From: a bacterium
GTDB taxonomy: Bacteria; Armatimonadota; Zipacnadia; Zipacnadales; UBA11051
Direction: 5' to 3'
Length of the DNA stretch: 64,000 bases
NCBI GenBank assembly: GCA_030604405.1
Contig: JAUVVY010000007.1
Span: 1 to 64,000, forward strand
The notes under the pieces are model-generated. The model did no database searches and was not told the origin of the DNA. It was given only the letters and a program-made list of their open reading frames with translations. The stretch's first letter is position 1; each line of letters opens with the position of its first letter. This document shows positions 5,800-48,790 of the stretch, in pieces. The translations under genes were made by a program, and so were the position numbers.

Positions 5800-6097
5800 A
5801 AGATCACCCCATGTAACATCAATCCGCCCGGCTCACGCGGGCTGCCTGCATGAGCCGAATGAAAAGTGATACGTCCCTCGTATCTACATGTTCACCCCCC
5901 TTTGCGTGAATTCCTTCTGCCGAGACCCAAGCAGGGAAAAGCGACCGGGGCCCTCTTGTATCACAAAAATGAGCCGGTATCCTCGCCTTGTCCGAAGAAG
6001 ACTGAAAAAGGCTCCACCGGCTTTTCCGGGAAGGAATATGGCCCGCTTAGGGTGAATGTCAATAGGGGCGAGCAAAACGGGAAATGGTGAGAGAGTC
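5800..6097. promoter_or_regulatory. divergent intergenic region between heparinase and cyclase genes
   Basis: This 298-bp gap separates two divergent genes and must hold both promoters. A short 6-bp inverted repeat (GATACG/CGTATC) lies at about 5869-5885. I cannot identify convincing -35/-10 pairs. Confidence 0.3.
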
Positions 6098-8032
6098 ATG
6101 GAGCAAGATGCGACGAGCAAACAGCTAGCACAGCGCCGGGCTGAGGGCATTCGGACAGGCGTTACAATCGCCGTGGTCGTCGTCGTGCTGCGCTACCTGC
6201 CTGCTACATCCAATCTGTTTCTCTTCCCTCTCATTGACAATTTCGCCTATGACGTTGCTTTTGGGCTGCGCGCGCCGCAGCAGCCGTCGGATATCGTGAT
6301 CGTCGCTATAGATGACGATAGTCTGAAGGAGGAGCGACTGGGATGGTTTCCGTGGCGACGAGATACCTACGTGAAACTGCTGGAGAAGCTCGATGGGGCC
6401 AAAGTCGTGGGGTTCGATGTGCTGTTTGCCGAACCTGACCGGCACAACCCGGAAGCCGACAGCCGCTTTGCCGAGGCAATCGAGCGGCACGGGCGGGTGG
6501 TGCTGGCGTCGTACAGGCGAGTGAGATCGGAGGTCAGCGCGGAGCAAGGCACCGAAGCAGCCGCCATCATGCCCTCGTATCCGCCCCCTGCAGGCGGCAC
6601 CGGCCCACTGATGCCGGTGCAGCCACGGAACCTCGCCCCGCCCATACCCAAGCTCGCCAAAGCAGCCGCCGGCATCGGGTATGTTGACATCGTGCCTGAC
6701 AGCGACGGCGTATATCGGTACGTAGCCCCACTGAAGGCAGGCTATGACCGCCGCGTGTATCCGCACTTTGCCACGGAGATGGCCCGTGTGGTCTCCGGCA
6801 CAACGGCCGAGCAGATCGTGGCGCGGGCGCCGGACAAGCAAGTAATGATGGACGAGCGGCCGGTCTATCTCAACGCCGATGGCAAGATGCTGATCAACTA
6901 TTGCGGCCCGACCGGCACGATACCGCGCTTCCGCTTCTGGGACGTAATCAGCGGGCAGGTTTCGGAGGATCAGTTCAAGGGTAAAATTGTACTCGTGGGT
7001 GCAACTGCGCCCGGGCTTTATGACATACGCAACGCGCCATACCGAGAGAAGAGCCGCTTCTTCCTGGGCGTGGAGACCAACGCCAATATCGTCAACAGCC
7101 TGCTGTACATGCCGCCACTGAGGGACAGCTCGCGCACAGTCGTATGGTTGGTTTTCGCGATGATATTGGGCTCGCTGGCATGCTGGGTTGTGTGGAGCAG
7201 CGCAGAGACAACCGGCCCGTTCGTCGGAGGCCTGATACTCGTCGTAATTGCGCTGCCTTCGTTCTTTGTGGTGTTCTACCTGGCCAATCAGGTAATTCCC
7301 TATGGAGCGATCGCCCTGGCCACGGCTCTGCCGGTCGGGCTGGGGATATATGACCGGCTGGGCGCGGAGCGGCGCATGATCCGTGGGCAGTTTGCCTCCT
7401 ACGTCTCAGAAGATGTGCTGGCGATGCTGACGAGGGACCCGGAGCTTATCCGCAGTGGCACACAGCGCGAGATCACTGTGCTGTTTTCCGATGTGCGGGG
7501 TTCAACATCGCTGGCGGAACAGTCAATCCCGGAGGCATGGCTGGCTCAGCTCAATCAGTACATGAGTCAGATGACGGAGGCGATCTTTGACTACAACGGC
7601 TACCTCGACAAGTTCATGGGTGACGGGATAATGGCGATCTGGAACGCCTTCGGCACTGATGCGAAACACGCTGAACTTGCCGTGCGCGCCGGTCTGGCAA
7701 TGCTTGAGCGGCTGGAAGTGCTGAATCAGGAGTGGGAAAACGCCGAGAACCGGCTCCCGTTCGGCATCCGTGTCGGCCTGCACACCGGTGAGGCAATGCT
7801 CGGAGATGCCGGTTCCGACCAGCGACGCCAGTACACCGCCATAGGCGACGTGGTCAACACCGCCGCCCGCATCGAAGAAATGAACAGGGAACTCGGCACC
7901 ACATTCATAATCAGTGAAACCGCCGCGCAACTGGTCGGGGACGTGTTCGAGTTGCGCGAGATCGGCGAGGTGGAGGTCCGTGGCCGCAGCAAGGGCATCA
8001 AAGTTTTCGAGGTGATGGGCGAAAGATCGTGA
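6098..8032 (+). CDS. CHASE2-domain class III adenylate/guanylate cyclase
   Basis: The 644-residue product has one N-terminal membrane segment (about 20-45), an extracytoplasmic CHASE2 sensor (about 50-320), two or three further membrane segments (about 330-430) and a class III nucleotide cyclase domain (about 455-635). The cyclase has the two metal-binding Asp motifs, FSDVRGS (near 463) and FMGDGIM, and the YTAIGDVVNTAARIE segment. It should make cAMP or cGMP in response to an envelope signal. The ATG at 6098 (MEQDA) was chosen; another in-frame ATG lies 42 bases upstream. The FecR-domain gene follows after 28 bases, a recurrent CHASE2/FecR pairing, so the two probably form one sensory unit. 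Confidence 0.9.
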   Translation: MEQDATSKQLAQRRAEGIRTGVTIAVVVVVLRYLPATSNLFLFPLIDNFAYDVAFGLRAPQQPSDIVIVAIDDDSLKEERLGWFPWRRDTYVKLLEKLDGAKVVGFDVLFAEPDRHNPEADSRFAEAIERHGRVVLASYRRVRSEVSAEQGTEAAAIMPSYPPPAGGTGPLMPVQPRNLAPPIPKLAKAAAGIGYVDIVPDSDGVYRYVAPLKAGYDRRVYPHFATEMARVVSGTTAEQIVARAPDKQVMMDERPVYLNADGKMLINYCGPTGTIPRFRFWDVISGQVSEDQFKGKIVLVGATAPGLYDIRNAPYREKSRFFLGVETNANIVNSLLYMPPLRDSSRTVVWLVFAMILGSLACWVVWSSAETTGPFVGGLILVVIALPSFFVVFYLANQVIPYGAIALATALPVGLGIYDRLGAERRMIRGQFASYVSEDVLAMLTRDPELIRSGTQREITVLFSDVRGSTSLAEQSIPEAWLAQLNQYMSQMTEAIFDYNGYLDKFMGDGIMAIWNAFGTDAKHAELAVRAGLAMLERLEVLNQEWENAENRLPFGIRVGLHTGEAMLGDAGSDQRRQYTAIGDVVNTAARIEEMNRELGTTFIISETAAQLVGDVFELREIGEVEVRGRSKGIKVFEVMGERS

Positions 8033-8060
8033 GATGTGAAAGCCAGAACGAGGTAATCCG

Positions 8061-9257
8061 ATGCTTAACTTGTTCGGCAGAAGGAAGAAGAAGCCGCGAG
8101 GCGACGTAGTGTCGGACGCGCTCGCCGACCTCAAAGATGACCAGAAGAGGAAAGCCAAACGCCGCAAACGTCGGGGGAAACAACTGCTCCCATCATGGGT
8201 GGACCGGCGCATGCTGATCGGGCTGGGAATAATTCTAATCGCAATCATAGCCGATGGCGTGCGCCGCGAAAACGAGGAATTCTACGCCAATATTACCAAG
8301 GTGTACGGGCAGGTCCAGGTCTATGCCGATGCCGAATCAGTCGGCAAGCCCGCGCAGGTCGGGGACAAGCTGCAGGACCGTAACATCATCCGCACCGGCG
8401 CGCAATCAGGCGCAGTGCTGGAGTTTCCTGATGACAGTGTGGTCACCGTTGGTGCCAACTCGCAAATGGTGGTCAAGCTGCTGGAGTACAACCGCGGTGG
8501 AGCCTGGCGAGCACGCTCGTTCTTCCTCCAATTCGGGCAGGTATGGGCCAGGGTCTCACCGCACTTCGGCGAGAAGTCGGAGATCAAGATATACACGCCC
8601 TCGTCTGTGGCCGCCGTTCGCGGCACCACGTTTTCCGTCTATCAGGGGCCCAGAGGCGCCGCGAGCGACATTATGTGCAGCGATGGGACGGTGGCGGCGC
8701 AGGGCCTCACCGGCGCCCCGCAAGCGGTCGGTGCCAATACCTGCGCCACTGTCTCAGCGGGCAAAGCCACGGGGCCGATGCGGGGAATGTCAAGCGAACA
8801 GACGGGCTATTTCAGACAACCTGAGCTGTGGAAAGAGATTCCTGAACCGCACTGGCTGAAGACTGTGGAGCTGACGATCACTCAGACGCTGGACGCGCCG
8901 CTTACGATTCTGGGCATCGGCAAGGCCTCTCCGTACGTCGGCTGCGCGAATTTTGCGCGTCGGACGGCGGCTCAGGAGCAACTGCGGCGACTCTACCTCG
9001 ATCTCGAGGGCGCCAAATACCCGAAATACATCAACCCCGGCACCATGGAACAACTCGACATTCCGGGCGACAAGCTGCGAATAATGCTGTCCACTTTCCA
9101 CGGTGATGCGATTGAGCTATACCGTCAACTCGAGAGCGGTAGGAGCTTCATTGTGTTGGCGCGCGCACGAGACACCCGGCGGACCCTGTACAAGGTCACG
9201 CCCTATGGTGTGGACAATGCCACCGAAGCCGAGCTGCGCCAGTACCAGGCCTACTGA
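8061..9257 (+). CDS. FecR-domain membrane-anchored protein
   Basis: This 398-residue protein has a very basic N-terminal cytoplasmic segment (KKKPRG, KRKAKRRKRRGK), one membrane helix (about 50-68) and a periplasmic FecR domain (about 75-195). The FecR domain is marked by VGDKLQDRNIIRTG, GAVLEFPDDSVVTVG and IYTPSSVAAVRGTTF. The remaining 200 residues have no fold I recognise. FecR domains often accompany CHASE2 cyclases, and this gene lies 28 bases after one. It may bind an extracytoplasmic ligand or polymer and modulate the cyclase. A rho-independent terminator follows the stop codon. Confidence 0.85.
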   Translation: MLNLFGRRKKKPRGDVVSDALADLKDDQKRKAKRRKRRGKQLLPSWVDRRMLIGLGIILIAIIADGVRRENEEFYANITKVYGQVQVYADAESVGKPAQVGDKLQDRNIIRTGAQSGAVLEFPDDSVVTVGANSQMVVKLLEYNRGGAWRARSFFLQFGQVWARVSPHFGEKSEIKIYTPSSVAAVRGTTFSVYQGPRGAASDIMCSDGTVAAQGLTGAPQAVGANTCATVSAGKATGPMRGMSSEQTGYFRQPELWKEIPEPHWLKTVELTITQTLDAPLTILGIGKASPYVGCANFARRTAAQEQLRRLYLDLEGAKYPKYINPGTMEQLDIPGDKLRIMLSTFHGDAIELYRQLESGRSFIVLARARDTRRTLYKVTPYGVDNATEAELRQYQAY

Positions 9258-30870: not shown

Positions 30871-33807
30871 TCATTCGAGGTTGACAACTTGCGCGGTGTC
30901 CTGGCCTAAGTTGCGCACCCACGAGGCCCAGGCGCTGGTCTTTATCCCGGCAAATTCACGTTCGATGCCGCCATCCGGGGCCAGCATGAACAGATCGCGC
31001 TGTTGCCCACGCGCAATTTCCAGCGCCACAGCACCTTCTCCCCCGCCGACCGCTATCTGCTTGACACTGCTGACGGCGGGAGTATCGCGGTAGGGCTCGA
31101 GTATCGAAATGAAGCTGGTGTTGGTTCCCTTGCGCCGCACTACCACCATCGGGCAGTCCTGCGGAGGATTGTTAGCCATGCCCATGCCGAAGTACAATTG
31201 TGTGGCTGGCGTACCAAGCACCGTCAGCCGTACATTCGCGTTATCGAGCTTGAAATCGGCAGACCAAGTCTCTGCTGTCTCTGCTTCGCTGATGTCTTTG
31301 ATATGCTGGTAGCCGTGGCCGTCGCCCAGAGGTTCGGAACGGGGTTCGCGAGGCAGTTGTGGCTCCAACTCGCCGAAGTTGTGATACAGCCAATCGTAGG
31401 TGTGCTCGTCAGCGCTGCTGACAGAGAATATGTCTATGACGTAGTCCTCGGTCAGCGCCGTTGTGCGGCGCATCATGACACCATCATAGGCCGCATCGCA
31501 CTCGGCCTGGGCGATACTGAAGCCGGGCTCGGAATGGAACCTGGTCAGCTTGCCCTGGGTCGCGGCCTGGCTTTTGTGGTCAACGCATACCGTGTTATGA
31601 GCGAATGTCTGCTTGTACCATGAGCCCTGCAGTGGCGCGCCATAGGCCAGCCGCGCCGGATCAGGGGCAAGCTGCTGCCCGAGAGCGAACAGGATGATCG
31701 TCAGCTTGTCAGGATGGCCATGCCCGCCGCCATGAGGGCCATAGTCGAGGTGCAGGTAGAGTTGGTCCTGGCCGCTTCCCTGGCGCAATACCACCGCTCC
31801 TATGCCGCTGAAATCCTTGCTCTCGAAGGCCACCTGCGGGGCCTCGGGCAGCTTGTCAACGCCCCACAGAAACGTCTCGAGGCTCTTGCGGCCGCCATGC
31901 CGGGCCACCGTCAGAAACTTGGGATCGCCAAAGCGCGCATAGGCCAAATCGTACAGACGGTGCCTCCCGGTGATCGAAAAGACCTCGCTGTCATTGACCG
32001 CGGGGAACGTAAGGTCCGGGAACACGTACAGCAGCGGGGCATCGTAAAGCGATTTGTATGGCTGATTGTCATAGAAGTTGATGCCCGCGAAGTAGGCCGC
32101 CTCAGTGGTCCAGCGCAGGGCGTCGAGTGCGTAGTAGTGGTACGCGGCGGTGCCCTCATACCAGAACCCATCACTGAGAATGCTGTTTGCCAACTGAAAG
32201 CGCAGGCCGCTTCTACCATTGATTGCCAGCGAGGCGATGTCCTCATCCTGCAGGCAGAAGCCGACCGCAGCGATCCCTGCGTTGTGCCACGACTGCCAGT
32301 TGCTAATTCCTGCGTCGTGGCGGCGGATCGTCGCAACCACCTCGCGCAAGAACTTGGTCTCAATCGCTGTGCGGTCATCGTCCGACAAGCATGGGCTGTT
32401 ATAGATGAGGTCATATCCCCATGCGACGCGGATTATGGCCACAGCCTCGTCGAGTGTTTGAGCGAAAACGCGCGCGGCCGAGGCGCTCTCGTTCCCCCTC
32501 ACGTCATGATACGGGTAGCTCAGATACTTGTCGGCGTAGGCCAGCAGAATCTCGCGCGCCTGCTCTGCATAAGCCTCCTTACCGGTGAATGCGTAGCCCA
32601 AGCCGAGATTGCAGATGTTGCGCCACTGGCGGTGATGGGCGCGAGCTGCAATGACCTGGTCATAGGGCCAGCCGGTGTACTCGGCGCCACACTTGCGGCA
32701 CACGTGCTTGCCGTGTTGGTACTTCAGACCCGCACCACACTTTTTGCAGACGTAGTGGTGGCTCCATTGGCCGGGCTCGTCGGGGATTTCAATTGCGGCC
32801 TTTAACCCGGCCTCGGCGTCGTTAATTATCCCGTCCAGTCGGTCCTTGGCCCAGGAGTACTCTTCGGCCCGGGCTTTGGCCTGCTCAAAGACCTCGGCAT
32901 CGCCAAATAGGAACGGGTGCCGGCGCTGGGGCAGCGGCACGGCTGCGGCGATCGTAATTTCAGGGTCTGGAACATCAGGGCTAGCGAGTTTCACCTGAAC
33001 CACAAACTCCTCTCTGGTCAGCGGCTCGGCCTGGGCCAATTTCTCTGCCGTCGCCCGCAGGTTCACCGGCAAAGGCACTCGTTCACCCGGCGCAATCAGG
33101 GGCGTACCGGCGGGCAATTCCGCAAGCTCATATATGCCGCCATCCTGCTCTTCCCCTGGCAATCGGTGTGCTTCGAGCTTGTACTGACGCGGCTGTTGGG
33201 AAAGGTTGGCCACGGCAACGCTATAAGTGATGGCGATTGACCCATCCTGGTGCCGCTGGATTTTCTTGTCATCTATTTGCAGGCGAACGGGGTCGCGTAT
33301 CAGTTTCACATCATCAAGATACAGCACTGTATCGGCGAGCGGATAGTGCCCCCAGCCGCCGGAATTGATGCCGAAGGAAGCTATCTGGTTCCAGCCCAGC
33401 GGATGCCGCGCTGGTCGGAAGTCGCCGGCCAAAGTCAGATTGCAGCGCTTCCAGCCCTGCCAATCCACTGACAAATGATAGAAGAAATAATCCCAACCCG
33501 CCTTGGTCTCATCCTCAGATGTCGCAGTGAGTGTGAGTCTCTGACCATTCGGCCGCTCGGAGTAAAGCCAGAAGACGAGGCGGTCGAAAACGGACCAGTC
33601 ACGAGGAATATCTGGCACAGCCAGGGAGCTTTGATGCTTGAGGTCGGCCCATTCGCCGGAGAAGCGCCCGCCCTTGACCCGCTCATCACTCTGGCCCAGG
33701 CCCTTCCACACAGCGGCCTCAAAATCGCCCAGTACCACGACGCCAGGAGCCTGGGCAAAGGCCAGCGAGACTACGAGAAGCAGACCAGCCAACCAGATAA
33801 ATCTCAT
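30871..33807 (-). CDS. large exported heparinase II/III protein with zinc-ribbon-like insert
   Basis: The 978-residue product has a signal peptide (MRFIWLAGLLLVVSLAFA), an N-terminal carbohydrate-binding-like sandwich (about 25-160), a second beta domain (about 165-280), a helical toroid (about 290-640) and a heparinase II/III C-terminal sandwich (about 650-960). The last contains HLDYGPHGGGHGHPDKL and FAHNTVCVDHKSQ. Between the beta domains and the toroid lies a CKKC..CRKC pair (about 353-374) that could bind zinc. It should be a periplasmic or outer polysaccharide lyase for uronic-acid glycans. The coupled sulfatase-like gene suggests a substituted, perhaps sulfated, substrate. The ATG at 33807 follows a G-rich site. 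Confidence 0.85.
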   Translation of the reverse strand: MRFIWLAGLLLVVSLAFAQAPGVVVLGDFEAAVWKGLGQSDERVKGGRFSGEWADLKHQSSLAVPDIPRDWSVFDRLVFWLYSERPNGQRLTLTATSEDETKAGWDYFFYHLSVDWQGWKRCNLTLAGDFRPARHPLGWNQIASFGINSGGWGHYPLADTVLYLDDVKLIRDPVRLQIDDKKIQRHQDGSIAITYSVAVANLSQQPRQYKLEAHRLPGEEQDGGIYELAELPAGTPLIAPGERVPLPVNLRATAEKLAQAEPLTREEFVVQVKLASPDVPDPEITIAAAVPLPQRRHPFLFGDAEVFEQAKARAEEYSWAKDRLDGIINDAEAGLKAAIEIPDEPGQWSHHYVCKKCGAGLKYQHGKHVCRKCGAEYTGWPYDQVIAARAHHRQWRNICNLGLGYAFTGKEAYAEQAREILLAYADKYLSYPYHDVRGNESASAARVFAQTLDEAVAIIRVAWGYDLIYNSPCLSDDDRTAIETKFLREVVATIRRHDAGISNWQSWHNAGIAAVGFCLQDEDIASLAINGRSGLRFQLANSILSDGFWYEGTAAYHYYALDALRWTTEAAYFAGINFYDNQPYKSLYDAPLLYVFPDLTFPAVNDSEVFSITGRHRLYDLAYARFGDPKFLTVARHGGRKSLETFLWGVDKLPEAPQVAFESKDFSGIGAVVLRQGSGQDQLYLHLDYGPHGGGHGHPDKLTIILFALGQQLAPDPARLAYGAPLQGSWYKQTFAHNTVCVDHKSQAATQGKLTRFHSEPGFSIAQAECDAAYDGVMMRRTTALTEDYVIDIFSVSSADEHTYDWLYHNFGELEPQLPREPRSEPLGDGHGYQHIKDISEAETAETWSADFKLDNANVRLTVLGTPATQLYFGMGMANNPPQDCPMVVVRRKGTNTSFISILEPYRDTPAVSSVKQIAVGGGEGAVALEIARGQQRDLFMLAPDGGIEREFAGIKTSAWASWVRNLGQDTAQVVNLE

Positions 33808-34043
33808 CACATGCCCCCCGTGTCAAGAGCGAAAAAGCCGTAAGCGTCTCATTGTAGATGAAATGGTTGATGTTGCCAAGTCCAGTGTCCCCCGGCCAAA
33901 GCTTTGTGCGTATGCGAGCAACGGAGGGGCAGGATACTCCCAACATGAGGCGAACTTTGGCATTATAAGCACCGGGCCAGACAACCAAGCGGCAATATGA
34001 TTCTAAGCCACAAGGTGAGTAGCTACGAAGGGAGTAAGGAAAG
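33808..34043. promoter_or_regulatory. divergent intergenic region
   Basis: This 236-bp gap separates the minus-strand heparinase operon from the plus-strand toroid gene and must hold both promoters. I cannot point to a specific promoter or operator. Confidence 0.3.
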
Positions 34044-38365: not shown

Positions 38366-40234
38366 CTACTCCAGCTCCCAGACCAGCAGCGTGGTATCGG
38401 CCGAGGCCGACACCAGCAGCTTTCCGTCGGGTGAAAGGGCCAGGGCGCACACAGCCGACTGATGACCCTTGAAGGTGCCGACTTGCTCGCAACTGGCCAA
38501 GTCCCAGCGGACGATGACTTTGTCATCTCCCGCCGCATACACCTGTGCGCCATCGGGCGAAGTGGCGAGTGTCTTCAGCCAAGCTCCCTGTGGCATCTCA
38601 TCTGCCAGCTTTCCGGAAGCGAGGTTCCAGCGTATCACTCGCGCATCGCGGCCGCCTGAGAGCGCGTACTGGCCCCCGGCCGCAAATGCAACACAGTTGA
38701 CCCAGCCGCGATGACCTTCCATCTTCTTGAGCTCTTTTTCCGCAGCCAAATCCCAGACGCGCACCGTGCCGTCGCGCCCGCCGCTGAGCACCAGCGTGTC
38801 GTCAGCCGATACGGCCACCGCCAACACGCCGCCACGATGGCCCTGCAGCACCGCCACTGCTTCGTCTGCATCGGCGGCCCAGATGCGTACGGAACCATCA
38901 TCGGCGCTGCTGATCAGGCGGCTGCCGTCGTGGGTGTATGCGACCGACCGCACATACCCGAGATGGCCGGCAAGCTCACGTATGAGTGTGCCGTCAGCGA
39001 GGTCGAATTCCCGCAGCATACCGTCCTTGCAGCCCGCGGCGGCCTTGGTCCCATCGGGGGAAACGGCTATGGCCCACGCACCGAGCTTGGCCCCTGCGAT
39101 GACCCGCACCGTGGTGCCGGTGCTGATATCCCACAGCCGCAGCGTACCGTCGGCTGAGCCGCTCAGGACATGCTGTCCGTCGGGCAAGAACGCCACGCCA
39201 TTGACGGCTCCGGCATGGCGCTCCCATTTCACGCGTGCCTCGCCGGTGGCCAGATCGCTTTCCGCTACCAGGCCGCCACCGTAAGACAGCACCCACTTGC
39301 CATCGGGAGAGACGCGCTGCATAGTGACATACCGCTCGTGCGGGAACCAGCGCCGCAGTATCTCGGCTGTTTCGCGGTTCCAGCGGCGGATCGAGCCGTC
39401 GCGCGAGCCGGTCAGAATCTGCTCCGGCTCGTGGCAATAAGCGACGGAGTTGACGGCGCCGCCGTGATGGCCCGCGAACCGCTTCAGCTCCTCATAGCCG
39501 TCAATCTTCCACTCGCTGCCAAAGCTGCGGCTGCCGACCAGCAGCCGCTCCTGGTCCGGCGACAGGCACAGGTCGTAAGCGCAGTAGTTGCTGAGGAACT
39601 GCGTGAGCTTCTCACCAGTAGTGAGGTCATAGTGGCACACGACCTGCTCGTAGCCGGCGCCTGCAAAGGCTGTCTTCCCCCCTGGCCCGTATACTGCCTT
39701 GTAGAACGTGGCCGCATCGTCGCTGCCATCAATGGCTATGAGCTCCTTGCCGGTGGCTAGCTCGAATTCCTTGACTGTCGGCGGCACGGTGCCGGTGGTC
39801 AAGACTCGTGTTTCGTCAGGCGAATAGAAGACCCACCTAAAGCTCACCTGATTGGTGGGGAACCTGTGGAGTTCTTTCTGTTCGGCCAGGCTCCATTCCA
39901 GGACATCGCCGCCGGAACGGAACAGCAGCCTGGTGCCGTCTTTGCTCACCTGCATGCAGCCCACACCTGCGTCGGACACCTTGTGGGTCGCCACTTGCTC
40001 GCCGGCGGCAAGGTCCCAGATGTGAATGCTGCTGCCGGTAGCGACAACGCCCCTGCCATCGGGCAGGTAGCGGATGTCGGAGACGCCGCCGGTGTACTTC
40101 ATGCGCAGGGTGCCGAGACGCTGCACCGCGCCTTCTGGTAGTGCATCGCCCAGGCTGTCGGTCGCTTCCTGTGCGACTGCGGCCATGCTTAACACCAAGA
40201 TACTTGCCAGTGACAAAAGCAGTTCGACTCTCAT
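38366..40234 (-). CDS. exported WD40-repeat protein 1
   Basis: The 622-residue product has a signal peptide (MRVELLLSLASILVLSMAAVA) and then twelve to fourteen WD40 repeats, enough for two propellers. The best repeats are in the second half, each ending in WDL, WDI or WEL (for example GHRGGVLAVAVS..GTVRVWDL). Directly after the signal peptide is LGDALPEGAVQRLGTLRMKY, a lead-in typical of WD40 proteins of Planctomycetes-like bacteria. It is a scaffold, not an enzyme. GGAGGAATGAGTC precedes the ATG. It is closely similar to the WD40 protein at 45905 and lies 77 bases downstream of a beta-helix gene. Confidence 0.88.
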   Translation of the reverse strand: MRVELLLSLASILVLSMAAVAQEATDSLGDALPEGAVQRLGTLRMKYTGGVSDIRYLPDGRGVVATGSSIHIWDLAAGEQVATHKVSDAGVGCMQVSKDGTRLLFRSGGDVLEWSLAEQKELHRFPTNQVSFRWVFYSPDETRVLTTGTVPPTVKEFELATGKELIAIDGSDDAATFYKAVYGPGGKTAFAGAGYEQVVCHYDLTTGEKLTQFLSNYCAYDLCLSPDQERLLVGSRSFGSEWKIDGYEELKRFAGHHGGAVNSVAYCHEPEQILTGSRDGSIRRWNRETAEILRRWFPHERYVTMQRVSPDGKWVLSYGGGLVAESDLATGEARVKWERHAGAVNGVAFLPDGQHVLSGSADGTLRLWDISTGTTVRVIAGAKLGAWAIAVSPDGTKAAAGCKDGMLREFDLADGTLIRELAGHLGYVRSVAYTHDGSRLISSADDGSVRIWAADADEAVAVLQGHRGGVLAVAVSADDTLVLSGGRDGTVRVWDLAAEKELKKMEGHRGWVNCVAFAAGGQYALSGGRDARVIRWNLASGKLADEMPQGAWLKTLATSPDGAQVYAAGDDKVIVRWDLASCEQVGTFKGHQSAVCALALSPDGKLLVSASADTTLLVWELE

Positions 40235-40311
40235 GACTCATTCCTCCCGCGTCGTGTATTGTTGATGAACATCGGCCGGGAATCGCGTGTCATCGTCCCG
40301 CGCCAGGTGTC

Positions 40312-41349
40312 CTAAAACTCGATTGGCTCTTTCTGGGGCGTCTTTTCCGGCCCCCACACGTTTTTGTAAGCGCGCGTGTTGCCCACCGAATAGACGGCTT
40401 CCTCCGGCGCGTTGAAAAACCAGTTGTGGTGGATCTCTGCTCCCTGTGAGGGCGTTCCCCGGATGCCGACCTCCCGCTTCGGCCCCAGGAACGTATTGTG
40501 ATGTATGTCCATCCAATCCCCCGCGATGTCTGTGTTGTCACCCCGGTCTCGGCCACCGTGCATATCCAACTCCGTGCTGGTGCAGTTCTCCATGATGAGG
40601 TTCCAGGCGGCCTCGTAGCTGCATCCCGGGCGACCGCCCGCCGCAACATGGTGGCGGCAGTAGTCGAACTTGTTGGCGATGATGTTCACGTCTGAGCTAT
40701 AGACCACCACGCCGTAGCCATAGCCGCTGCGCTGGCAGTGATGGATGTAGTTGTGGTGTACCTGCACCTGAGAGGCACCAAGAGCCGTACAAACGCCCTG
40801 GATGTTCCAGTTGTAGATCTCGCAATTGTCAATTTCGGTGCGGAAATGACTGACGCGCAGGAATGTGGCATTTTGCGCTGTTCTCTCTGTGCCGGCAAAG
40901 GGCCCCTCAATGCGCAGGCCTGTGACACGGCCCTCGTTGCCGGTGGTGACGAACTGCGTGCCCGATCTCTGCCTGGTAAAGAGCAGCGCCCCCTGCGATC
41001 CGTTCAGCCCGCGGGTGCCGGCGAGCGTCACCGCACCCGGTAGCTGTATGCCCATGGTGCCGGTCAACTCGATCTCTACGCCATCGGGCACAAAGATTAC
41101 CTGGCTGGCCTGGGCCTGCTTCAGCGCCTCTAATAGCTCTTCTTTGCTGGTGACGGTGAAATCACCGCTGGTACAAATGTCGCTGTAGCCTTCGCCCCCG
41201 CCGATGGGGTTGCCGGTCGGATTGGCCTCACAGCCGAAAGTCTCCTCAGCGTCCTGAGCTACGGCCGGACATGAGGACATGCAAGTCCACGAGAGAATCA
41301 ACAACCCCCAAAAAGCCATCCGCGGCGCTTCTCTAATCAATTCAGTCAC
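40312..41349 (-). CDS. exported pectate-lyase-like beta-helix protein, paralogue 1
   Basis: The 345-residue product has a signal peptide and a mature N-terminus EETFGCEANPTGNPIGGG, followed by a region resembling the N-terminal cap of PL1-type pectate lyases (SKEELLEALKQAQ..VIFVPDGVEIELTG). The remainder is a right-handed beta-helix with HHNYIHHCQRSGYGYGV, NKFDYCRHHV and DMHGGRDRGDNTDIAGDW. It probably cleaves or binds an acidic polysaccharide outside the cell, but the PL1 catalytic Arg cannot be assigned by eye. Closest in make-up to the copies at 44758 and 43685; it keeps the C-terminal EKTPQKEPIEF. It is last of the five-gene helix run and directly upstream of WD40 protein 1. Confidence 0.75.
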   Translation of the reverse strand: MTELIREAPRMAFWGLLILSWTCMSSCPAVAQDAEETFGCEANPTGNPIGGGEGYSDICTSGDFTVTSKEELLEALKQAQASQVIFVPDGVEIELTGTMGIQLPGAVTLAGTRGLNGSQGALLFTRQRSGTQFVTTGNEGRVTGLRIEGPFAGTERTAQNATFLRVSHFRTEIDNCEIYNWNIQGVCTALGASQVQVHHNYIHHCQRSGYGYGVVVYSSDVNIIANKFDYCRHHVAAGGRPGCSYEAAWNLIMENCTSTELDMHGGRDRGDNTDIAGDWMDIHHNTFLGPKREVGIRGTPSQGAEIHHNWFFNAPEEAVYSVGNTRAYKNVWGPEKTPQKEPIEF

Positions 41350-41417
41350 CGTCCTTTGCTTTCCGTTGACGTCAGCGCTGGCGGCCAGAAAGTGACCTAG
41401 ACTGTATCATCCATGAG

Positions 41418-41497
41418 CAACGACCTCGGGCTGGAAGCTGAGAATGCTGTGGCATTCTCACCTGCCCTTCGACAAGCTCAGGGCAGGCCGAGCTACG
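41418..41497 (+). repeat. interspersed double-hairpin element, copy 1
   Basis: This 80-bp element starts CAACGACCTCGGGCTGGAAG and has two hairpins. The first is a 9-bp stem (41439-41447 with 41452-41460, loop TGTG). The second is an 8-bp stem (41461-41468 with 41480-41487). The second includes the sequence that, read as protein, gives the well-known spurious peptide FDKLRAG. An inverted copy lies at 53435-53518. It sits in the gap between two beta-helix genes. Confidence 0.85.
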
Positions 41498-41522
41498 CGT
41501 TGGTGGATGATTCGAACCAGGG

Positions 41523-42560
41523 TCAATACTCGACCGGTTTGCCATCAACAAACTTCAGCGGCTTCTCCTGTGGCGTCTTGTCCGGCCCGTGAACGTTGTC
41601 ATAGACACGGGTGTTGCCGAGAGAATAGACTGTTTCATCTGGCGGCTTCGCAAACCAGTTGTTGTGAATCTCCGCCCCCTGTGAGGGGACGCCGCGGATG
41701 GCGACCGCGCGGTTCGGGTTCTGGAAGGTGTTGTGGTGAATGTGCATCCAGTCGCCCGCGATGTCGGTGCTGTCACCGCGGTCGCGCCCGCCGTGCATGT
41801 CGAAGTGGTGGCTGGTGGCGTTGGGACCGATGAGATTCCATGCGGCTTCGTACGAGCAGCCGGGCGCGCCGCTTGAGGCGATGTGGTGGCGGCAGTAATC
41901 GAACTTGTTGGCGATGATGTGTACGGTGCAATTGTCTATGCGCACACCGTAGCCATAGCCACTGCGCTGGACGTGGTGGATGTAGTTATGGTGGACTCGG
42001 ACATTGGCAGCCCCGTAGCCGGCGGCTACACCCCGGTGGTTGAAGTTGTAGATCTCACAGTTATCCACTTCAGTGCCGTAATGTGGGGTCCACAAGAAGG
42101 TGTTGTGGGCCGAGATTCTGTCCGTTCCGCCAAAAGGGCCCTCGAAACGCAGACCGGTGAGGCGGACCTCATCGCCGCCTGTGCGAAACAGATAACTCGG
42201 CAGCTTGCCGGTGAATACGCGGGCGCCGGCCGAGCCGTTGAGCCCGCGCGTGCCGGCCACTGTCACCCCGGGCGGTATCACTACGGCACTCCACCCGGTC
42301 ACATCAATCTCCACGCCGTCGGGCAAGAAGATGACCTGTCCGGGCTGGGCCTGCTTGAGGGCGTCCAGGAGCTCTGCGGTCGTGCCGACCGTGAAATCGC
42401 CGCTGGTGTAAATGTCGCTGTAGCCTTCGCCCCCGCCGATTGGATTGCCGGTCGGGTTGGCTTCACAGCCGAAGGTTGCTTCAGCCTGCTGCGCAGTTGC
42501 CGTTCCCAGAACTAACACCCCCAGCAGAACCACCAGCCCGCCGCAACGCACCATTTTCAT
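41523..42560 (-). CDS. exported pectate-lyase-like beta-helix protein, paralogue 2
   Basis: The 345-residue product has a signal peptide (MKMVRCGGLVVLLGVLVLG..AQQ) and the shared ATFGCEANPTGNPIGGGEGY motif. Specific features are TVGTTAELLDALKQAQPGQ in the cap, HRGVAAGYGAANVRVHHNYIHHVQ, and NLIGPNATSHHFDMHGGRDRGDST. The C-terminus is EKPLKFVDGKPVEY, almost the same as the copy at 44758. ATGs at 42560 and 42554 are both possible; GCAGGTGAG is just upstream. It is the third-closest to the WD40-linked copy at 47789 in the SHHFDMHGG stretch. Confidence 0.75.
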   Translation of the reverse strand: MKMVRCGGLVVLLGVLVLGTATAQQAEATFGCEANPTGNPIGGGEGYSDIYTSGDFTVGTTAELLDALKQAQPGQVIFLPDGVEIDVTGWSAVVIPPGVTVAGTRGLNGSAGARVFTGKLPSYLFRTGGDEVRLTGLRFEGPFGGTDRISAHNTFLWTPHYGTEVDNCEIYNFNHRGVAAGYGAANVRVHHNYIHHVQRSGYGYGVRIDNCTVHIIANKFDYCRHHIASSGAPGCSYEAAWNLIGPNATSHHFDMHGGRDRGDSTDIAGDWMHIHHNTFQNPNRAVAIRGVPSQGAEIHNNWFAKPPDETVYSLGNTRVYDNVHGPDKTPQEKPLKFVDGKPVEY

Positions 42561-42611
42561 CTCACCTGCACCTACATTCCTCGCACTTGCCCACCAGAGC
42601 CACCGTCCGTG

Positions 42612-43628
42612 CTAGTCTTTTCTCCAGTCTATCGGGTCAGAATCCATCGTCTTCTCGGACCCATACAGATTCCGCCAGGCTTTAGTATTCCCGCCGGAGG
42701 TCACATTTCCCTTGGCCGGTCCGAACCAGTTGTGGTGGATGTCTGCGCCCTGGGACGGCACGCCGCGGATGACGATATTCCGCACCTTGGTCTCAAAGGT
42801 GTTGTGGTGGATGTGAATGTAGTCACCTGCTATCCTCGTCCCGTCCCCTCGGTCCCTGCCCCCGTGCATGTCGAAGCTATGCCCATTCGCGTTCGGTCCG
42901 GAGAAGTTCCACGCCGCTTCGTACCCGCTCCCGGGCTGACCTGATGACGCGATATGGTGGCGACACCAGTCAAACTTGTTGGCGATGACGGAGAAGAAAT
43001 TCCCGCTAGCTGCGATCCCGTACCCGTAGCCTGAACGCTGGCAATGATGGATGTAATTGTGGTGCACCCGCATCCCGATGATGCCCTCTGCGCCCCCGAT
43101 ACCATAGTAGCTGAAGCACGATACCTCGCAGTTGTCCACCTCGCAGTAGGCGTGACCGATATTGATCCCGCCGGTATGGTCAGTCACCGTCGCACGTTCC
43201 CCATACGGCCCCTCAATGCGCAGGCCGGTCACGCGAACCCCATACCCTCCAGTCCTGAACATCGTATGGCTCTGTCGCCAGGTGGTGTACAAACGCGCGC
43301 CTGCCGATCCCTTCAAACCGCGCGTCCCGGCCAGCGTCACCTGCTGCGGAATGATTATGTCCTCGTGTCCGGCCAAATCTATCTCCACCCCGTCAGGCAC
43401 AAAGACCACCTGGCCGGCCTGGGCGTTTTTCAGCGCCTCCAGCAGCTCTTCTTTGGTCGTCACGGTGAAATCGCCACTGGTGCGAATGTCGCTGTAGCCC
43501 TCACCCCCGCCGATCGGATTTCCCGTCGGATTCGCTTCACAGCCGAAGGTCTCGGCAGCGTCCTGCGCTACAGTTGGGGCAACGAAGATGCAAAGCAGCA
43601 ATATCCCCAGTACCGTCCTGGCTGCCAC
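42612..43628 (-). CDS. exported pectate-lyase-like beta-helix protein, paralogue 3
   Basis: The 338-residue product starts at a GTG (43628) behind GGAGAGGAAACA and has a signal peptide ending near PTVAQ. The ETFGCEANPTGNPIGGGEGY motif follows. This copy is the most diverged: the helix has CEVSCFSYYGIGGAEGIIGMRVHH where others have CEIYN, and NKFDWCRHHI instead of NKFDYCRHHV. The C-terminus ends TMDSDPIDWRKD and lacks the PEKTPQE tail. It is separated from its neighbours by about 50 bases on each side, so the array is likely one transcript. Confidence 0.75.
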   Translation of the reverse strand: MAARTVLGILLLCIFVAPTVAQDAAETFGCEANPTGNPIGGGEGYSDIRTSGDFTVTTKEELLEALKNAQAGQVVFVPDGVEIDLAGHEDIIIPQQVTLAGTRGLKGSAGARLYTTWRQSHTMFRTGGYGVRVTGLRIEGPYGERATVTDHTGGINIGHAYCEVDNCEVSCFSYYGIGGAEGIIGMRVHHNYIHHCQRSGYGYGIAASGNFFSVIANKFDWCRHHIASSGQPGSGYEAAWNFSGPNANGHSFDMHGGRDRGDGTRIAGDYIHIHHNTFETKVRNIVIRGVPSQGADIHHNWFGPAKGNVTSGGNTKAWRNLYGSEKTMDSDPIDWRKD

Positions 43629-43684
43629 TGTTTCCTCTCCTTGGCGGTCGTCATGATTTCTGCGCGCGGCAACATCCGGGCTTC

Positions 43685-44680
43685 TCAGAATTCGATTGGC
43701 TCTTCCTGCAAGGTTTTGTCCGGTCCATACACATTGTCATAAACGCGGGTGTTTCCCACCGCGTGGACTGCCTCGGCGGACGGCTCCGTGAACCAGTTAT
43801 GGTGGATCTGGCCCTCCTCAGAAGGAACACCGTAGATGCCAACGGCGCGCTGCTTGCCCTGAAAGGTATTGTGATGGATATATATCCAGTCGCCGGCGAT
43901 ATCGGTACCGTCGCCGCGATCCCCGCCGCCGTGCATGTCCAGGCAATAGCCGGTGCAATTGGGCATAATCAGATTCCAGGCGGCCTCATAACTGCAGCCC
44001 GGTGCGCCATCGCCTGCGACGTGATGGCGGCAGTAGTCGAACTTGTTGGCGATGATGTCGGCGTCGGCCGCAGCGATGCACACGCCGTAGCCGTATCCGC
44101 CACGCTGGGAGTGATGGATGTAGTTGTGGTGGACTTGCACCCTGGAAGCCCCGAGGCTGATGGAAATGGCCATGTAGTTCCAGTTGTAAATCTCACAATT
44201 GTCCACCTCGGTGCCGTAATGCCTGGTGGAAAGAAACAGGCCCCAAAACTTGCCCGATCTTTCTGATCCACTGTATGGGCCTTCAAAGCGCAATCCCGTG
44301 AAGCGAACTTCGTCAGCGCTGGTGATAAATTGCGTAACGTTTTCCTGGGTGGTAAAGACCCTGGCGCCCGGCGATCCATGCAGGCCGCGCGTACCCGCCA
44401 CTATAACGCCGCCCGGAACGCCGATGCTGAGATGGCCTGTCAAGTCAATCTCCACGCCGTCGGGCAAGAAAATGACCTGGCCGTGCTCGGCCTGCTTCAG
44501 GGCGTCTAGCAACTCCTCGGCTGTGGTGACGGTGAAATCGCCGCTGGTGAAGATGTCGCTGTAGCCTTCGCCTCCGCCGATGGGGTTGCCGGTCGGATTG
44601 GCTTCACAGCCGTAAGCCCCGTCAGAGCCCTGTGCTGCGGCACTCACGGCCAACAGAGAAACTACCAGCACCGATAGCAT
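43685..44680 (-). CDS. exported pectate-lyase-like beta-helix protein, paralogue 4
   Basis: The 331-residue product has a short signal peptide (MLSVLVVSLLAVSAAA) and a shortened link to the motif GAYGCEANPTGNPIGGG. Distinct features are DMHGGGDRGDGTDIAGDWIYIHH (Gly for Arg in HGGRD) and GVPSEEGQIHHNWF where others have GxPSQGAEIHHNWF. The C-terminus is DKTLQEEPIEF. No clear ribosome site precedes the ATG at 44680, so the start is less certain than in the other copies. Confidence 0.72.
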   Translation of the reverse strand: MLSVLVVSLLAVSAAAQGSDGAYGCEANPTGNPIGGGEGYSDIFTSGDFTVTTAEELLDALKQAEHGQVIFLPDGVEIDLTGHLSIGVPGGVIVAGTRGLHGSPGARVFTTQENVTQFITSADEVRFTGLRFEGPYSGSERSGKFWGLFLSTRHYGTEVDNCEIYNWNYMAISISLGASRVQVHHNYIHHSQRGGYGYGVCIAAADADIIANKFDYCRHHVAGDGAPGCSYEAAWNLIMPNCTGYCLDMHGGGDRGDGTDIAGDWIYIHHNTFQGKQRAVGIYGVPSEEGQIHHNWFTEPSAEAVHAVGNTRVYDNVYGPDKTLQEEPIEF

Positions 44681-44757
44681 CGTCCAGTATGCCAGTTTTA
44701 CTCTTCTCTTCCTTCCTCACAGTGTTGCTGCCCAGTCATATCTGCGCCGGGCTAAGG

Positions 44758-45822
44758 TCAATACTCGACCGGTTTGGCGTCAACAAACTTCAACGGCTTT
44801 TCCTGTGGCGTCTTCTCTGGTCCATAGACATTGTTGTAGGCGCGCGTATTGCCCACCGAATAGAGGGTCGTCTTCGGCTCATCGTAGAACCAGTTGTTGT
44901 ATATCTCCGCGCCCTGACTGGGAGTGCCACGAATGCCCACAGCCCTTTGTTTGCCCTGAAAAGTGTTGTGATGAATGTCCATCCAGTCGCCGGCGATGTC
45001 GGTGTTGTCTCCCCGGTCGCGCCCGCCGTGCATGTCCAGAGCTGTGCTGGTGCAATTGGGCATGATCAGGTTCCAGCCACATTCATAGTTGCAGCCGGGC
45101 TGCCCACCGGCGGCTACATGATGGCGGCAGTAATCGAACTTGTTGGCGATGATGTGCACAGATGCCGCGCCTACAACGACACCGTAGCCATAGCCGGATC
45201 GCTGACTGTGGTGGATGTAGTTATGATGGACACGCACCTTGATAGCGCCGCTGCCCACCCCGATGACACTGGTGTTGAAGTTGTATATCTCGCAGTTGTC
45301 CACCTCGACGCCGTAGTGGCTTATCGACAAGAACCCGCAGTGGTCAGCGACCCTCTCTGTGCCTGCGAAGGAGCCCTCGAAACGCAGCCCGGTCAGGCGT
45401 GCTTCATCGCCAGCCGTCCGCATCAGAGTATGACTTTGGCGCAGCGTGGTGAAGATGCGCGCTCCGGGGGAGCCGTTGAGGCCCCGAGTTCCGGCCAGTG
45501 TCACCCCGACAGGGATACCTATACCGCGCTCGCCGGTAAGATCAATCTCGACTCCGTCAGGGACGAAGATTACCTGGCCGGGCTGGGCCTGCTTAAGAGC
45601 GGCCAGCAATTCTTCTTTGGTCGTCACGGTGAAATCACCACTGGTGTAAATGTCGCTATAGCCTTCGCCCCCGCCGATGGGGTTGCCGGTCGGGTTGGCC
45701 TCGCAGCCGAAGGTCTCCTCAGCCTGCTGCGCCAGGCCCATCCCGCAAATGATACACAAACACAGGACCGCCAATATACTTGAGAAGCTCATCTGCACAC
45801 ATTTTGGCATCATTTCGAGCAT
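44758..45822 (-). CDS. exported pectate-lyase-like beta-helix protein, paralogue 5
   Basis: The 354-residue product has a signal peptide with several in-frame ATGs (45822, 45813, 45810, 45792); the first has AGGGGCG upstream. The mature part begins EETFGCEANPTGNPIGGG. It has LRQSHTLMRTAGDEARLTGLRFEG, nearly identical to a stretch of the copy at 47789. NLIMPNCTSTALDMHGGRDRGDNT matches the copy at 40312. It is first of the five-gene helix run, 82 bases downstream of WD40 protein 2. Confidence 0.76.
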   Translation of the reverse strand: MLEMMPKCVQMSFSSILAVLCLCIICGMGLAQQAEETFGCEANPTGNPIGGGEGYSDIYTSGDFTVTTKEELLAALKQAQPGQVIFVPDGVEIDLTGERGIGIPVGVTLAGTRGLNGSPGARIFTTLRQSHTLMRTAGDEARLTGLRFEGSFAGTERVADHCGFLSISHYGVEVDNCEIYNFNTSVIGVGSGAIKVRVHHNYIHHSQRSGYGYGVVVGAASVHIIANKFDYCRHHVAAGGQPGCNYECGWNLIMPNCTSTALDMHGGRDRGDNTDIAGDWMDIHHNTFQGKQRAVGIRGTPSQGAEIYNNWFYDEPKTTLYSVGNTRAYNNVYGPEKTPQEKPLKFVDAKPVEY

Positions 45823-45904
45823 TGCGTTCGCCCCTTATCTGATATACTGTTTGGCGCCGGTCTCAACTGTACCTGCGCATTCTTGCCGAACTGATTGGCT
45901 GTCA

Positions 45905-47785
45905 TCAGCCTTCAGGTACTTCCCATACCAGCAGCGTGGTATCCGAAGATGCCGTGACTAACAGCCTGCCATCCGGGGACACTGCCAGCGCCGTCACGGC
46001 TGCGGTATGGCCTTTGTACTGGGCTATCTGCTCGCCTTCGGCAAGGTCCCAGCATATCACTCCACGGTTGCCGCCGACCGAGTATGCGCTGGTGCCGTCG
46101 GGCGAGCAGGCCAGGTCGTACACCCAGCCCCCGTGGCCCATTTCGGCGGCAAGTTCGCGCGCTGCGAGATTCCAACGCAAGACACGACCATCCCGGCCGC
46201 CGGAGAACACGTACTCGCCGTTGCCGGCGAACGCGACCGCCTGCACCCAGCCGCGATGCTCTTCAAGCTTCTGCACCTCTGCGTTCGTCGTCAGGTCCCA
46301 AACACGCACTGTGCCGTCGCGCCCGCCGCTGACTAGCAGCTTGTCGTCAGGCGACACCGCCACCGCGAGCACACCGCCGCGATGGCCCTCAAGCCGTGCC
46401 ACCGGCTCAGCCGCGTCGCCCTCCCACACGCAAATGGAGCCGTCGTCGGCACTGCTCAACAACCGGCTGCCCTCATGAGTATAGGCAACGGAGCGGACAT
46501 AGCCGAGGTGGCCGTCCAGCTCGCGCAGCAGTGAGCCGTCCGCCAGAGCGAACTCGCGTACAACGCTGTCCTTGCAGCCGGCTGCCACACGCTCGCCGTC
46601 CGGAGACACGTCCAGTGCATAGGCTCCGAGTTTGGCGCCTTCAATGACGAGTTGGCTCTCGGCGCTGACAGGGTCCCACACTCGCAGCGTGCCATCCGAC
46701 GACCCGCTGATAACCCGGTCCCCGGAAGGCGTAAAGGCTACCGATTCGACAGATCCGCTGTGGCGCTCCCACTGCAGCCGCGGCTTTCCGGTGTCCATAT
46801 TTGTCTCCGCAAGCAGACCGCCGCCGTGTGATAGCACCCACTGGCCGTCGGGCGATATACAGATGCTATAGATGGGGCCGGTGTGCGCCATCCAGGAGAA
46901 GACCTGCTTGCCCGTCTCACGGTCAAAGCGATGAATCGAGCCGGTTCGGAGCCCAAGGACGGCCTCATTGCGCTGCGGGGCATACTCGTGTGCGAAGCAG
47001 CGGCCGGCCTCCCCGCGCACAGCATCATACCTGTACAATACCGAGTAGTCCTCCAGCTTCCATTCCACCGCGTGACTTTCCACACCAACCAGCAGGCATG
47101 TGCCGTCCGGTGACAGCTTAATGTCCTTAGCCTCGTAATTGCCGCCCCATTTGTGCAGCAGTTCTCCGGTTGCCAGGTCGCGGCGCTCCAGCAGGTGGTT
47201 GTAGCCGCCGCCCATGATGGCAGTCTTGCCCTCCGGCCCATAGATCGCGCCACAGCGGGTGGTGGCAAAACCTGGTGTTCTTATATCGGCGATCTTCTCG
47301 CCAGTTTCGATGCTCAACTCCATCAGACCGAGCGGCGAGGAGCCGGCGACCAACAGCCGCGTCTCATCGGCCGAATAGCAGGCACTTCGCAGACTTCCCT
47401 GACCAGTTTCCCACTGCCGCACAACCTCCTGCTTCTCGAAGTCCCACTCGTACACCGTGCCGGCCGCATCGCCCAGTAGCAGCACTTTGCCGTCCGAGCG
47501 TAATTGGACACACGTCAAGCCTGATCCAGAGACCTTGGTTCGAGACTGCACCTCACCATCAACCAAGTCCCAGATATGCACATAGCCGCCGGTGAGTAAA
47601 ACGCCGCGCCCGTCTGGGAGATATGCCAGGCCGCCTACCCCTCCGTAGCGCATCCGCAACGTACCCAGCCGCTGGATGGCTGCTTCAGGTAGTGGCTCGC
47701 CGAGGCTGTCCAGTGCCTGCCCGGCGGCTTCGCTCATGGTGGTCAAAGCAAACAGTCCGACTAACAGATACAATACTGCTTTCAC
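45905..47785 (-). CDS. exported WD40-repeat protein 2
   Basis: The 626-residue product has a signal peptide (MKAVLYLLVGLFALTTMSEAAG) and the lead-in LGEPLPEAAIQRLGTLRMRY, then twelve to fourteen WD40 repeats. It aligns end to end with WD40 protein 1; for example both contain ELxGHLGYVRSVAYTH, SRLxSSADDGS and LAVSPDGxLLVxASxDTTLLVWE. It starts with GTG behind GGAGGAATGAACC, with only three bases between it and the stop of the beta-helix gene upstream, so translation is coupled. It likely acts in the periplasm as a binding scaffold for the beta-helix proteins; that partner role is inference. Confidence 0.88.
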   Translation of the reverse strand: MKAVLYLLVGLFALTTMSEAAGQALDSLGEPLPEAAIQRLGTLRMRYGGVGGLAYLPDGRGVLLTGGYVHIWDLVDGEVQSRTKVSGSGLTCVQLRSDGKVLLLGDAAGTVYEWDFEKQEVVRQWETGQGSLRSACYSADETRLLVAGSSPLGLMELSIETGEKIADIRTPGFATTRCGAIYGPEGKTAIMGGGYNHLLERRDLATGELLHKWGGNYEAKDIKLSPDGTCLLVGVESHAVEWKLEDYSVLYRYDAVRGEAGRCFAHEYAPQRNEAVLGLRTGSIHRFDRETGKQVFSWMAHTGPIYSICISPDGQWVLSHGGGLLAETNMDTGKPRLQWERHSGSVESVAFTPSGDRVISGSSDGTLRVWDPVSAESQLVIEGAKLGAYALDVSPDGERVAAGCKDSVVREFALADGSLLRELDGHLGYVRSVAYTHEGSRLLSSADDGSICVWEGDAAEPVARLEGHRGGVLAVAVSPDDKLLVSGGRDGTVRVWDLTTNAEVQKLEEHRGWVQAVAFAGNGEYVFSGGRDGRVLRWNLAARELAAEMGHGGWVYDLACSPDGTSAYSVGGNRGVICWDLAEGEQIAQYKGHTAAVTALAVSPDGRLLVTASSDTTLLVWEVPEG

Positions 47786-47788
47786 GGT

Positions 47789-48790
47789 TCATTCCTCCAA
47801 TACTTTGTCAGGGCCGTACACGTTGCGATAAACACCCGTGTTGCCGCGCGAGATTACCGTTTTTTCGACCGGCAGTGCAAACCAATTGTGATGCACTTGC
47901 GCGCCTTGAGAAGGCACGCCGCGTATTACGACTGAGCGGGCCTTGCCCTGGAAGGTGTTGTGGTGAATGTGCATCCAGTCGCCGGCAATGTCGGTGTTGT
48001 CGCCGCGGTCTCGGCCTCCGTGCATGTCGAAGTGGTGGCTGCTGGCGTCGGGACCGATGAAGTTCCACGCCGCCTCGTAGCCGGAACCAGGCAGGCCACC
48101 GGAGGCGATGTGGTGGCGGCAGAAGTCAAACTTGTTGGCGATGATGTGGATGTCGCTTGAGCCGGTGGACACCCCGTAGCCATACCCGGAGCGCTGGCAG
48201 TGATGAATGTAATTGTGGTGGATCTGGATGTTGTTGGTGGCGACGCCTACACCGATGCCTCTGACATTGAAGTTGTATATTTCGCAGTTATCCACCTCGC
48301 AGCCCCAGTGGCTTATGCCGAGGAATCCGGAATGCTCGGCGACCTTCTCTCTGCCTCCGTAGGCCCCCTCAAAGCGCAGGCCTGTGATGCGTACTTCCTC
48401 GCCGGCGGTCACCATCAGGACGTGGCTTTGGCGCAGTGTGGTGAAGATGCGCGCTCCGGCCGAGCCGTTGAGGCCGCGAGTGCCAGCCAGTGTAACCGCG
48501 CTCGGTATCGCGATATTGCGCTCGCCGGTGAGGTCAATGACTACACCGTCGGGCACGAAGATCACCTGGCCGGCCTTGGCATTTTTCAGCGCGGCCAGCA
48601 GCTCTTCTTTGGTCGTCACGGTGAAATCGCCGCTGGTGAATATGTCGGTATAGCCCTCGCCTCCGCCAATCGGGTTGCCAGTGGGGTTGGCCTCACAGCC
48701 AAAAGTCTCCTCTGCCTCATCAGCGCCAAGCACAGGGCACAATAGGGCCAGTACGAGTGTCACACAGAGCCAGCGAGTGTGCACTGCCAT
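47789..48790 (-). CDS. exported pectate-lyase-like beta-helix protein, paralogue 6 (WD40-coupled)
   Basis: The 333-residue product has a signal peptide (MAVHTRWLCVTLVLALLCPVLGA) and the EETFGCEANPTGNPIGGG motif. The helix carries HHNYIHHCQRSGYGYGV, NKFDFCRHHI and SSHHFDMHGGRDRGD. It stops early at GPDKVLEE, lacking the 15-20-residue tail of other copies, because its stop codon lies within the ribosome site of WD40 protein 2. GGAGGAGGTACGATC precedes the ATG. It is the most upstream gene of the array and probably the first of the operon. Confidence 0.76.
   Translation of the reverse strand: MAVHTRWLCVTLVLALLCPVLGADEAEETFGCEANPTGNPIGGGEGYTDIFTSGDFTVTTKEELLAALKNAKAGQVIFVPDGVVIDLTGERNIAIPSAVTLAGTRGLNGSAGARIFTTLRQSHVLMVTAGEEVRITGLRFEGAYGGREKVAEHSGFLGISHWGCEVDNCEIYNFNVRGIGVGVATNNIQIHHNYIHHCQRSGYGYGVSTGSSDIHIIANKFDFCRHHIASGGLPGSGYEAAWNFIGPDASSHHFDMHGGRDRGDNTDIAGDWMHIHHNTFQGKARSVVIRGVPSQGAQVHHNWFALPVEKTVISRGNTGVYRNVYGPDKVLEE

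Follow-up and report, generated by a model that had tools for sequence, protein, structure and literature searches.

The alginate lyase PsAly of family PL31 (PDB 6KFN) is a right-handed beta-helix protein of a single domain and about 300 residues, with Tyr184 and Lys221 as the catalytic residues (PMC6796002). The beta-helix fold is shared by the larger PL6 proteins, such as BcAlyPL6 (7DMK) and chondroitinase B (1OFM), and by the uronan-acting mannuronan C-5 epimerases of the AlgE4 type, the catalytic residues of which (Tyr149, Asp152 and His154) follow the scheme Tyr + Asp-x-His (PMC7385640). Double-propeller scaffolds are represented by the UTP/Pwp2-type and axonemal proteins, which are eukaryotic and intracellular. 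Many secreted WD40 proteins occur in bacteria of Planctomycetes-like and related phyla, usually without an assigned partner, and we know of no WD40 partner of PsAly.

The genes analysed here form an array of exported beta-helix and WD40 proteins in a deep-sediment bacterium that named hits place near Candidatus Zipacnadia (Armatimonadota), a class that has been described (PMC10290634). Both folds are known; their obligate pairing appears to be undescribed, no account of a helix-WD40 module having been found in the literature searched, absence from which is not proof.

Organization of the array and probable coupling of H1 to W1

The array occupies positions 38366-48790 of the window (the whole analysed stretch of 64,000 nucleotides) and is transcribed from the minus strand in the order H1-W1-H2-H3-H4-H5-H6-W2:

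H1, 47789..48790, minus strand: exported right-handed beta-helix protein of 333 aa; first gene of unit A, its end codons holding the W1 ribosome-binding site
H1 stop region, 47786..47800, minus strand: TTGGAGGAATGA ACC then GTG; W1 Shine-Dalgarno within the H1 -LEE* codons
W1, 45905..47785, minus strand: exported WD40 protein of 626 aa; partner of H1 in unit A; 14 blades expected from the fused model
H2, 44758..45822, minus strand: extra beta-helix paralogue; L133 orthologue 90% identical
H3, 43685..44680, minus strand: extra beta-helix paralogue, placed with H6 by the tree
H4, 42612..43628, minus strand: extra beta-helix paralogue; L133 orthologue 82% identical
H5, 41523..42560, minus strand: extra beta-helix paralogue; L133 orthologue 91% identical
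H6, 40312..41349, minus strand: beta-helix protein of unit B; W2 follows after 77 nt
W2, 38366..40234, minus strand: exported WD40 protein of 622 aa; partner of H6 in unit B

The intergenic gaps, in the order of transcription, are 3, 82, 77, 56, 51, 173 and 77 nt. The helices share 55-71% pairwise identity and every one of them carries a hydrophobic leader and GCEANPTGNPIGGGEGY, as the preliminary description had claimed; all six are full-length, but the series of six consecutive paralogues reported there is reduced to H2-H6, since W1 separates H1 from the others. Its two exported WD40 proteins, each directly downstream of a helix gene, were recovered after H1 and H6 and are homologous end to end (53% identity between W1 and W2). 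With identities this high, chance is no issue for the paralogy within the array. Pfam WD40 (PF00400) scored above cut-off in W1 and W2 (242.4 and 259.8 bits, respectively), and Beta_helix was matched, weakly, in five of the six helices.

The W1 start lies 3 nt past the H1 stop, and the Shine-Dalgarno GGAGG of W1 is placed inside the last H1 codons, TTGGAGGAATGA. As judged from the sequence, H1 and W1 would be translationally coupled (47789/47785), in agreement with the earlier proposal. The same -LEE* end with its embedded site occurs in pairs of Armatimonadota, Pirellulaceae, Phycisphaerae, Lentisphaerae and Verrucomicrobia, and for about 19 of 31 pairs an automatic scan put the WD40 Shine-Dalgarno inside the helix ORF; a few of these (e.g. 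L133_2113 and L072) look mis-called. It had been suggested that H1 lost its tail to make room for W1; this is probably backwards, for paired helices of other phyla also end in -LEE*. The short end of H1 is probably the common form, and because it is the commoner one, it is likelier that H2-H6 gained their longer tails than that H1 lost part of its end.

Leaders, called from hydrophobicity and by eye and not by SignalP, were present on both partners of nearly every pair, those of the L150 and L151 helices being Tat-like. A fusion was also considered for L150, whose helix ORF has a long N-terminal region, but was rejected, the real start lying after this region, where the Tat-like signal begins. 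In L083 and L086 both partners are without a leader, and their helices have Ala in place of the Cys of GCEANPT, a residue found in 47 of 49 exported relatives.

Distribution and common history of helix and WD40 genes

All four WD40 genes of the subfamily in the source genome lie directly downstream of a helix gene. Besides the array, contig C69 carries a helix (5701-6702) followed 3 nt later by a WD40 (6706-8580), and contig C51 another helix-WD40 pair in this order, in which the WD40 is extended at its C terminus. This extension of about 160 residues (L025 7533-9902) is absent from the other three WD40s of the genome.

Among 151 related Armatimonadota genomes the WD40 subfamily was found in 18, helices of the WD40-linked clade were present in the same 18, and the remaining 133 had neither, as read off the two match lists for WD40 and helix; the one-sided Fisher value for this co-occurrence is 1e-23, with kinship ignored. 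Helices outside the clade were present in seven genomes lacking both the WD40 subfamily and a linked-clade helix. In the Armatimonadota relatives 30 of the 31 WD40 genes adjoin a helix gene or are fused to it (one at a distance of 473 nt, L134_3427, and two with the helix downstream), and the last one begins a contig, the matching helix standing at the end of another contig of the same genome. This is the arrangement by which the proposed module is defined: a WD40 of the subfamily next to a WD40-clade helix or joined to it in one chain. Pairs occur also in metagenome-assembled genomes (MAGs) labelled Pirellulaceae, Phycisphaerae, Lentisphaerae, Verrucomicrobia, Latescibacterota and Gemmatimonadota, which extends them to the phyla Planctomycetota, Lentisphaerota, Verrucomicrobiota, Latescibacterota and Gemmatimonadota. 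The search for adjacent genes in other genomes, suggested earlier as a check, revealed pairing well beyond the source genome, in 18 of 151 relatives and five more phyla; most of these loci come from MAGs, for any single one of which a binning error is possible.

In a tree of 105 helices all those adjacent or fused to a WD40 fell into one group of 55 rows (support 89; 53 rows, support 98), and no WD40-linked helix was found outside that clade. Unlinked helices within it are mostly extra array copies or stand at contig ends; the exception is L081, a clade helix with room downstream yet without a WD40. In L148 and L149 both partners form one chain, with the leader in front, the WD40 first and a linker of about 30 residues. 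Separate genes are usually arranged the other way round, but the fusion order equals the WD40-then-helix junctions met within arrays (W1-H2; L143, which reads WD40-helix-WD40). The fused helices fall with L143 and L080 in the helix tree, the fused WD40s nearer to unit A in theirs, and the fusion therefore probably joined a WD40 to the helix that followed it.

For 33 pairs, the tree of the helices agrees with that of the WD40s (Mantel r 0.64, a value reached in 0 of 5000 permutations). As a control for species history, partners were re-paired only within genomes containing several units; 2 of 13,824 such re-pairings reached the observed match, one of them being the true pairing. The histories of helix and WD40, the comparison of which had been advised, match beyond species history.

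Counterparts of unit A (H1 and W1) are L133_11539, L146_6264, L140_5588 and L141_6113, and those of unit B (H6 and W2) are L133_2113, L139_67 and L141_2902. In L141, a genome of the same genus, units A and B form a direct tandem, no gene lying between them, and extra helices between the units occur in the source window and in L133. The simplest account that fits these arrangements is an inherited A-B tandem with a later expansion of helices between A and B, as envisaged in the proposal of unit duplication followed by helix expansion; loss of the inserted genes in L141 is the alternative. In L137 (5232-6255) one helix of an array is spread over two overlapping ORFs, the result of a broken gene or a sequencing error.

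The flanking genes differ by locus and encode, for instance, a 5'-nucleotidase, ankyrin, M20 peptidase, GH95, heparinase or alginate-lyase-like proteins; at some loci heparinase II/III, alginate-lyase-like, GH95 and CBM9 genes lie nearby. The source genome (4.4 Mb) is rich in uronan-type polysaccharide enzymes, with 60 matches to the Heparinase II/III C-terminal domain (9-72 in 15 relatives). Because of these 60 matches genome-wide, the nearness of heparinases to the pairs proves little and is not clearly above background expectation. An assignment of function from the neighbours was rejected, the flanks being mixed and heparinase proximity hard to separate from background. About 4.5 kb beyond the array, at 30871-33810 of the window (minus strand), lies the gene of a protein that combines an Alginate_lyase domain with a Heparinase II/III C-terminal domain.

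Predicted structures of the two partners

The AlphaFold model of the helix (mean pLDDT 96.6, pTM 0.94) predicts a right-handed beta-helix as in PL31 alginate lyase, and its nearest PDB folds are PL31 alginate lyase, pectate lyases, GH28, PL6 chondroitinase B and phage depolymerases. The best of these matches, to PsAly, has a TM of 0.57 at 16% identity. The match of the model is to the general beta-helix, which also serves tailspikes and structural proteins; it supports a carbohydrate-enzyme-type fold, yet not membership of a family. A profile search linked the helix weakly (E 6e-5) with a single PL6 structure, that of the lyase BcAlyPL6. This match spans positions 48-184, which is part of the domain, and neither a full-length match at the family level nor a PL6 family call was obtained. 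No sequence relatives of a single helix were found in the PDB, and Pfam and NCBIfam offered no lyase family, no CAZy-type family and no name for it. Like NosD and Pfam Beta_helix proteins, the helices gave weak matches to PF13229, PF05048 or TIGR04247 (NosD), but the TIGR04247 score was 18.6 bits against a curated cut-off of 300.

Twelve residues are invariant across the 105 helices, including H173, Y182, Y215 and H234, and R202, H203, D232, D238, R239 and D241 are near-invariant (mature H1 numbering for Y182, R202, H203, Y215, D232 and H234). They persist at about 45% identity, also outside the WD40 clade. Compared by conservation and not by superposition, the Tyr + Lys pair of PL31 finds an invariant Tyr in the 105 helices but no invariant or near-invariant Lys to match Lys221, and for lack of an invariant counterpart of the catalytic Lys the helix was not assigned to PL31. 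The Tyr + Asp-x-His of AlgE4-type epimerases recalls D232-M-H234 of the helix; this is an analogy only, as no sequence match was seen and the residue order and spacing differ. In the eight helices of the source genome variability peaks at positions 68, 99, 129, 157, 188, 228, 262 and 285, with weak autocorrelation (0.20 at 32 residues). As the peaks come about once per coil, their spacing would imply a variable stripe along the solenoid.

In the model of the fused WD40-helix chain (pTM 0.74) the propeller region and the helix are resolved, the linker between them is disordered with low confidence, and no interface is defined. The WD40 part matches the tandem-propeller scaffolds of the UTP/Pwp2 and axonemal types, from which the array WD40s differ in being bacterial and exported, and the WD40 protein is expected from this model to consist of two seven-bladed propellers.

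The proposed module and its alternatives

That helix and WD40 are partners is very probable, and the fusions, the matched trees, the Shine-Dalgarno sites in the -LEE* ends and the signal peptides jointly missing in two lineages all support it. We propose that they constitute a conserved exported module of two components. The first would be a right-handed beta-helix of about 310 residues from a new family, probably carbohydrate-active as an enzyme or binder, with a polysaccharide, perhaps an acidic one, as its target. The second, a WD40 protein of about 620 residues, would be a dedicated non-catalytic partner, possibly in contact with the helix, with a role in docking, in presenting the substrate or in assembly; both would be made together by translational coupling and exported together. 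In the array, the inherited units A (H1 and W1) and B (H6 and W2) would enclose four additional helices; these have roughly one variable patch in each coil and keep the invariant set rich in Tyr, Arg, His and Asp. We lean slightly towards this reading, a conserved two-component module made of a carbohydrate-active helix that is secreted and translationally coupled to its double-propeller partner. Taken separately, a carbohydrate-active role of the putative enzyme or binder is probable, and its being a true enzyme is evenly balanced. A bolder version, held only tentatively, is an obligate two-protein machine spread over at least six phyla, in which a helix enzyme of a new family would depend on the double propeller, with the array helices sharing propellers and addressing many glycans. 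The overall interpretation in the preliminary description is supported in part: of its three refuting conditions, pairing confined to this genome and unrelated tree histories did not apply, and unit duplication with helix expansion fits; the WD40s may, as it supposed, act as scaffolds, and the helices may differ in substrate specificity.

The helix contains no recognised catalytic motif or CAZy-type Pfam family, its fold occurs also in tailspikes and structural proteins, and its variability repeats along the helix, all of which would suit surface or periplasmic binding or adhesion proteins anchored by the WD40s, the paralogues having different ligand surfaces. We regard this as unlikely: the conservation of Tyr, Arg, His and Asp at about 45% identity, outside the WD40 clade too, exceeds the expectation for a pure scaffold, the closest solved folds are mostly carbohydrate enzymes, and two lineages (L083 and L086) appear to hold the pair in the cytoplasm. 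That the WD40 serves the helix as assembly factor, chaperone or inhibitor, and is not a part of the working complex, is quite improbable: natural fusions hold both partners permanently in one chain, and each WD40 has diversified together with its own helix to a degree that species history does not explain. In favour of such a role, the helix would be made first and the WD40 next through the coupled start, and the several helices of the array share two WD40s.

A travelling gene cassette, co-inherited by horizontal transfer without joint function, would account for the patchy spread (18 of 151 relatives and scattered phyla) and for flanking genes that change between loci, but hardly for the fusions, the embedded ribosome-binding sites and the jointly absent signal peptides, nor for the finding that neither partner occurs alone in the 151 genomes. 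Identity between distant pairs is low, which argues for long-term retention of the pair; the cassette is very improbable. A phage origin was also considered and rejected, as phage records gave 0 matches and viral contigs one weak partial match.

If the helices of the proposed module act on polysaccharides, they would represent an undescribed enzyme architecture in bacteria rich in uronan-lyase-type genes, and the array would be a natural set of specificity variants. The role of the WD40s of this subfamily is directly testable, since they have only one partner, obligate at the level of the genomes, and fusions exist.

Helices outside the WD40 clade were met in other contexts. On contig C58 of the source genome (33000-49000) two longer ones flank two tandem PD40-type propeller genes (L026 4948-11784), and in a Clostridia MAG (L097) one chain combines a PD40 propeller with such a helix; both cases suggest a second, independent helix-propeller association. 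An Oscillospiraceae MAG (L123 3279-10975) carries a tandem of six outside-clade helices without this WD40 subfamily, and archaeal ones are encoded in Methanoculleus MAGs (L126 and L128), that of L128 being joined to CARDB domains.
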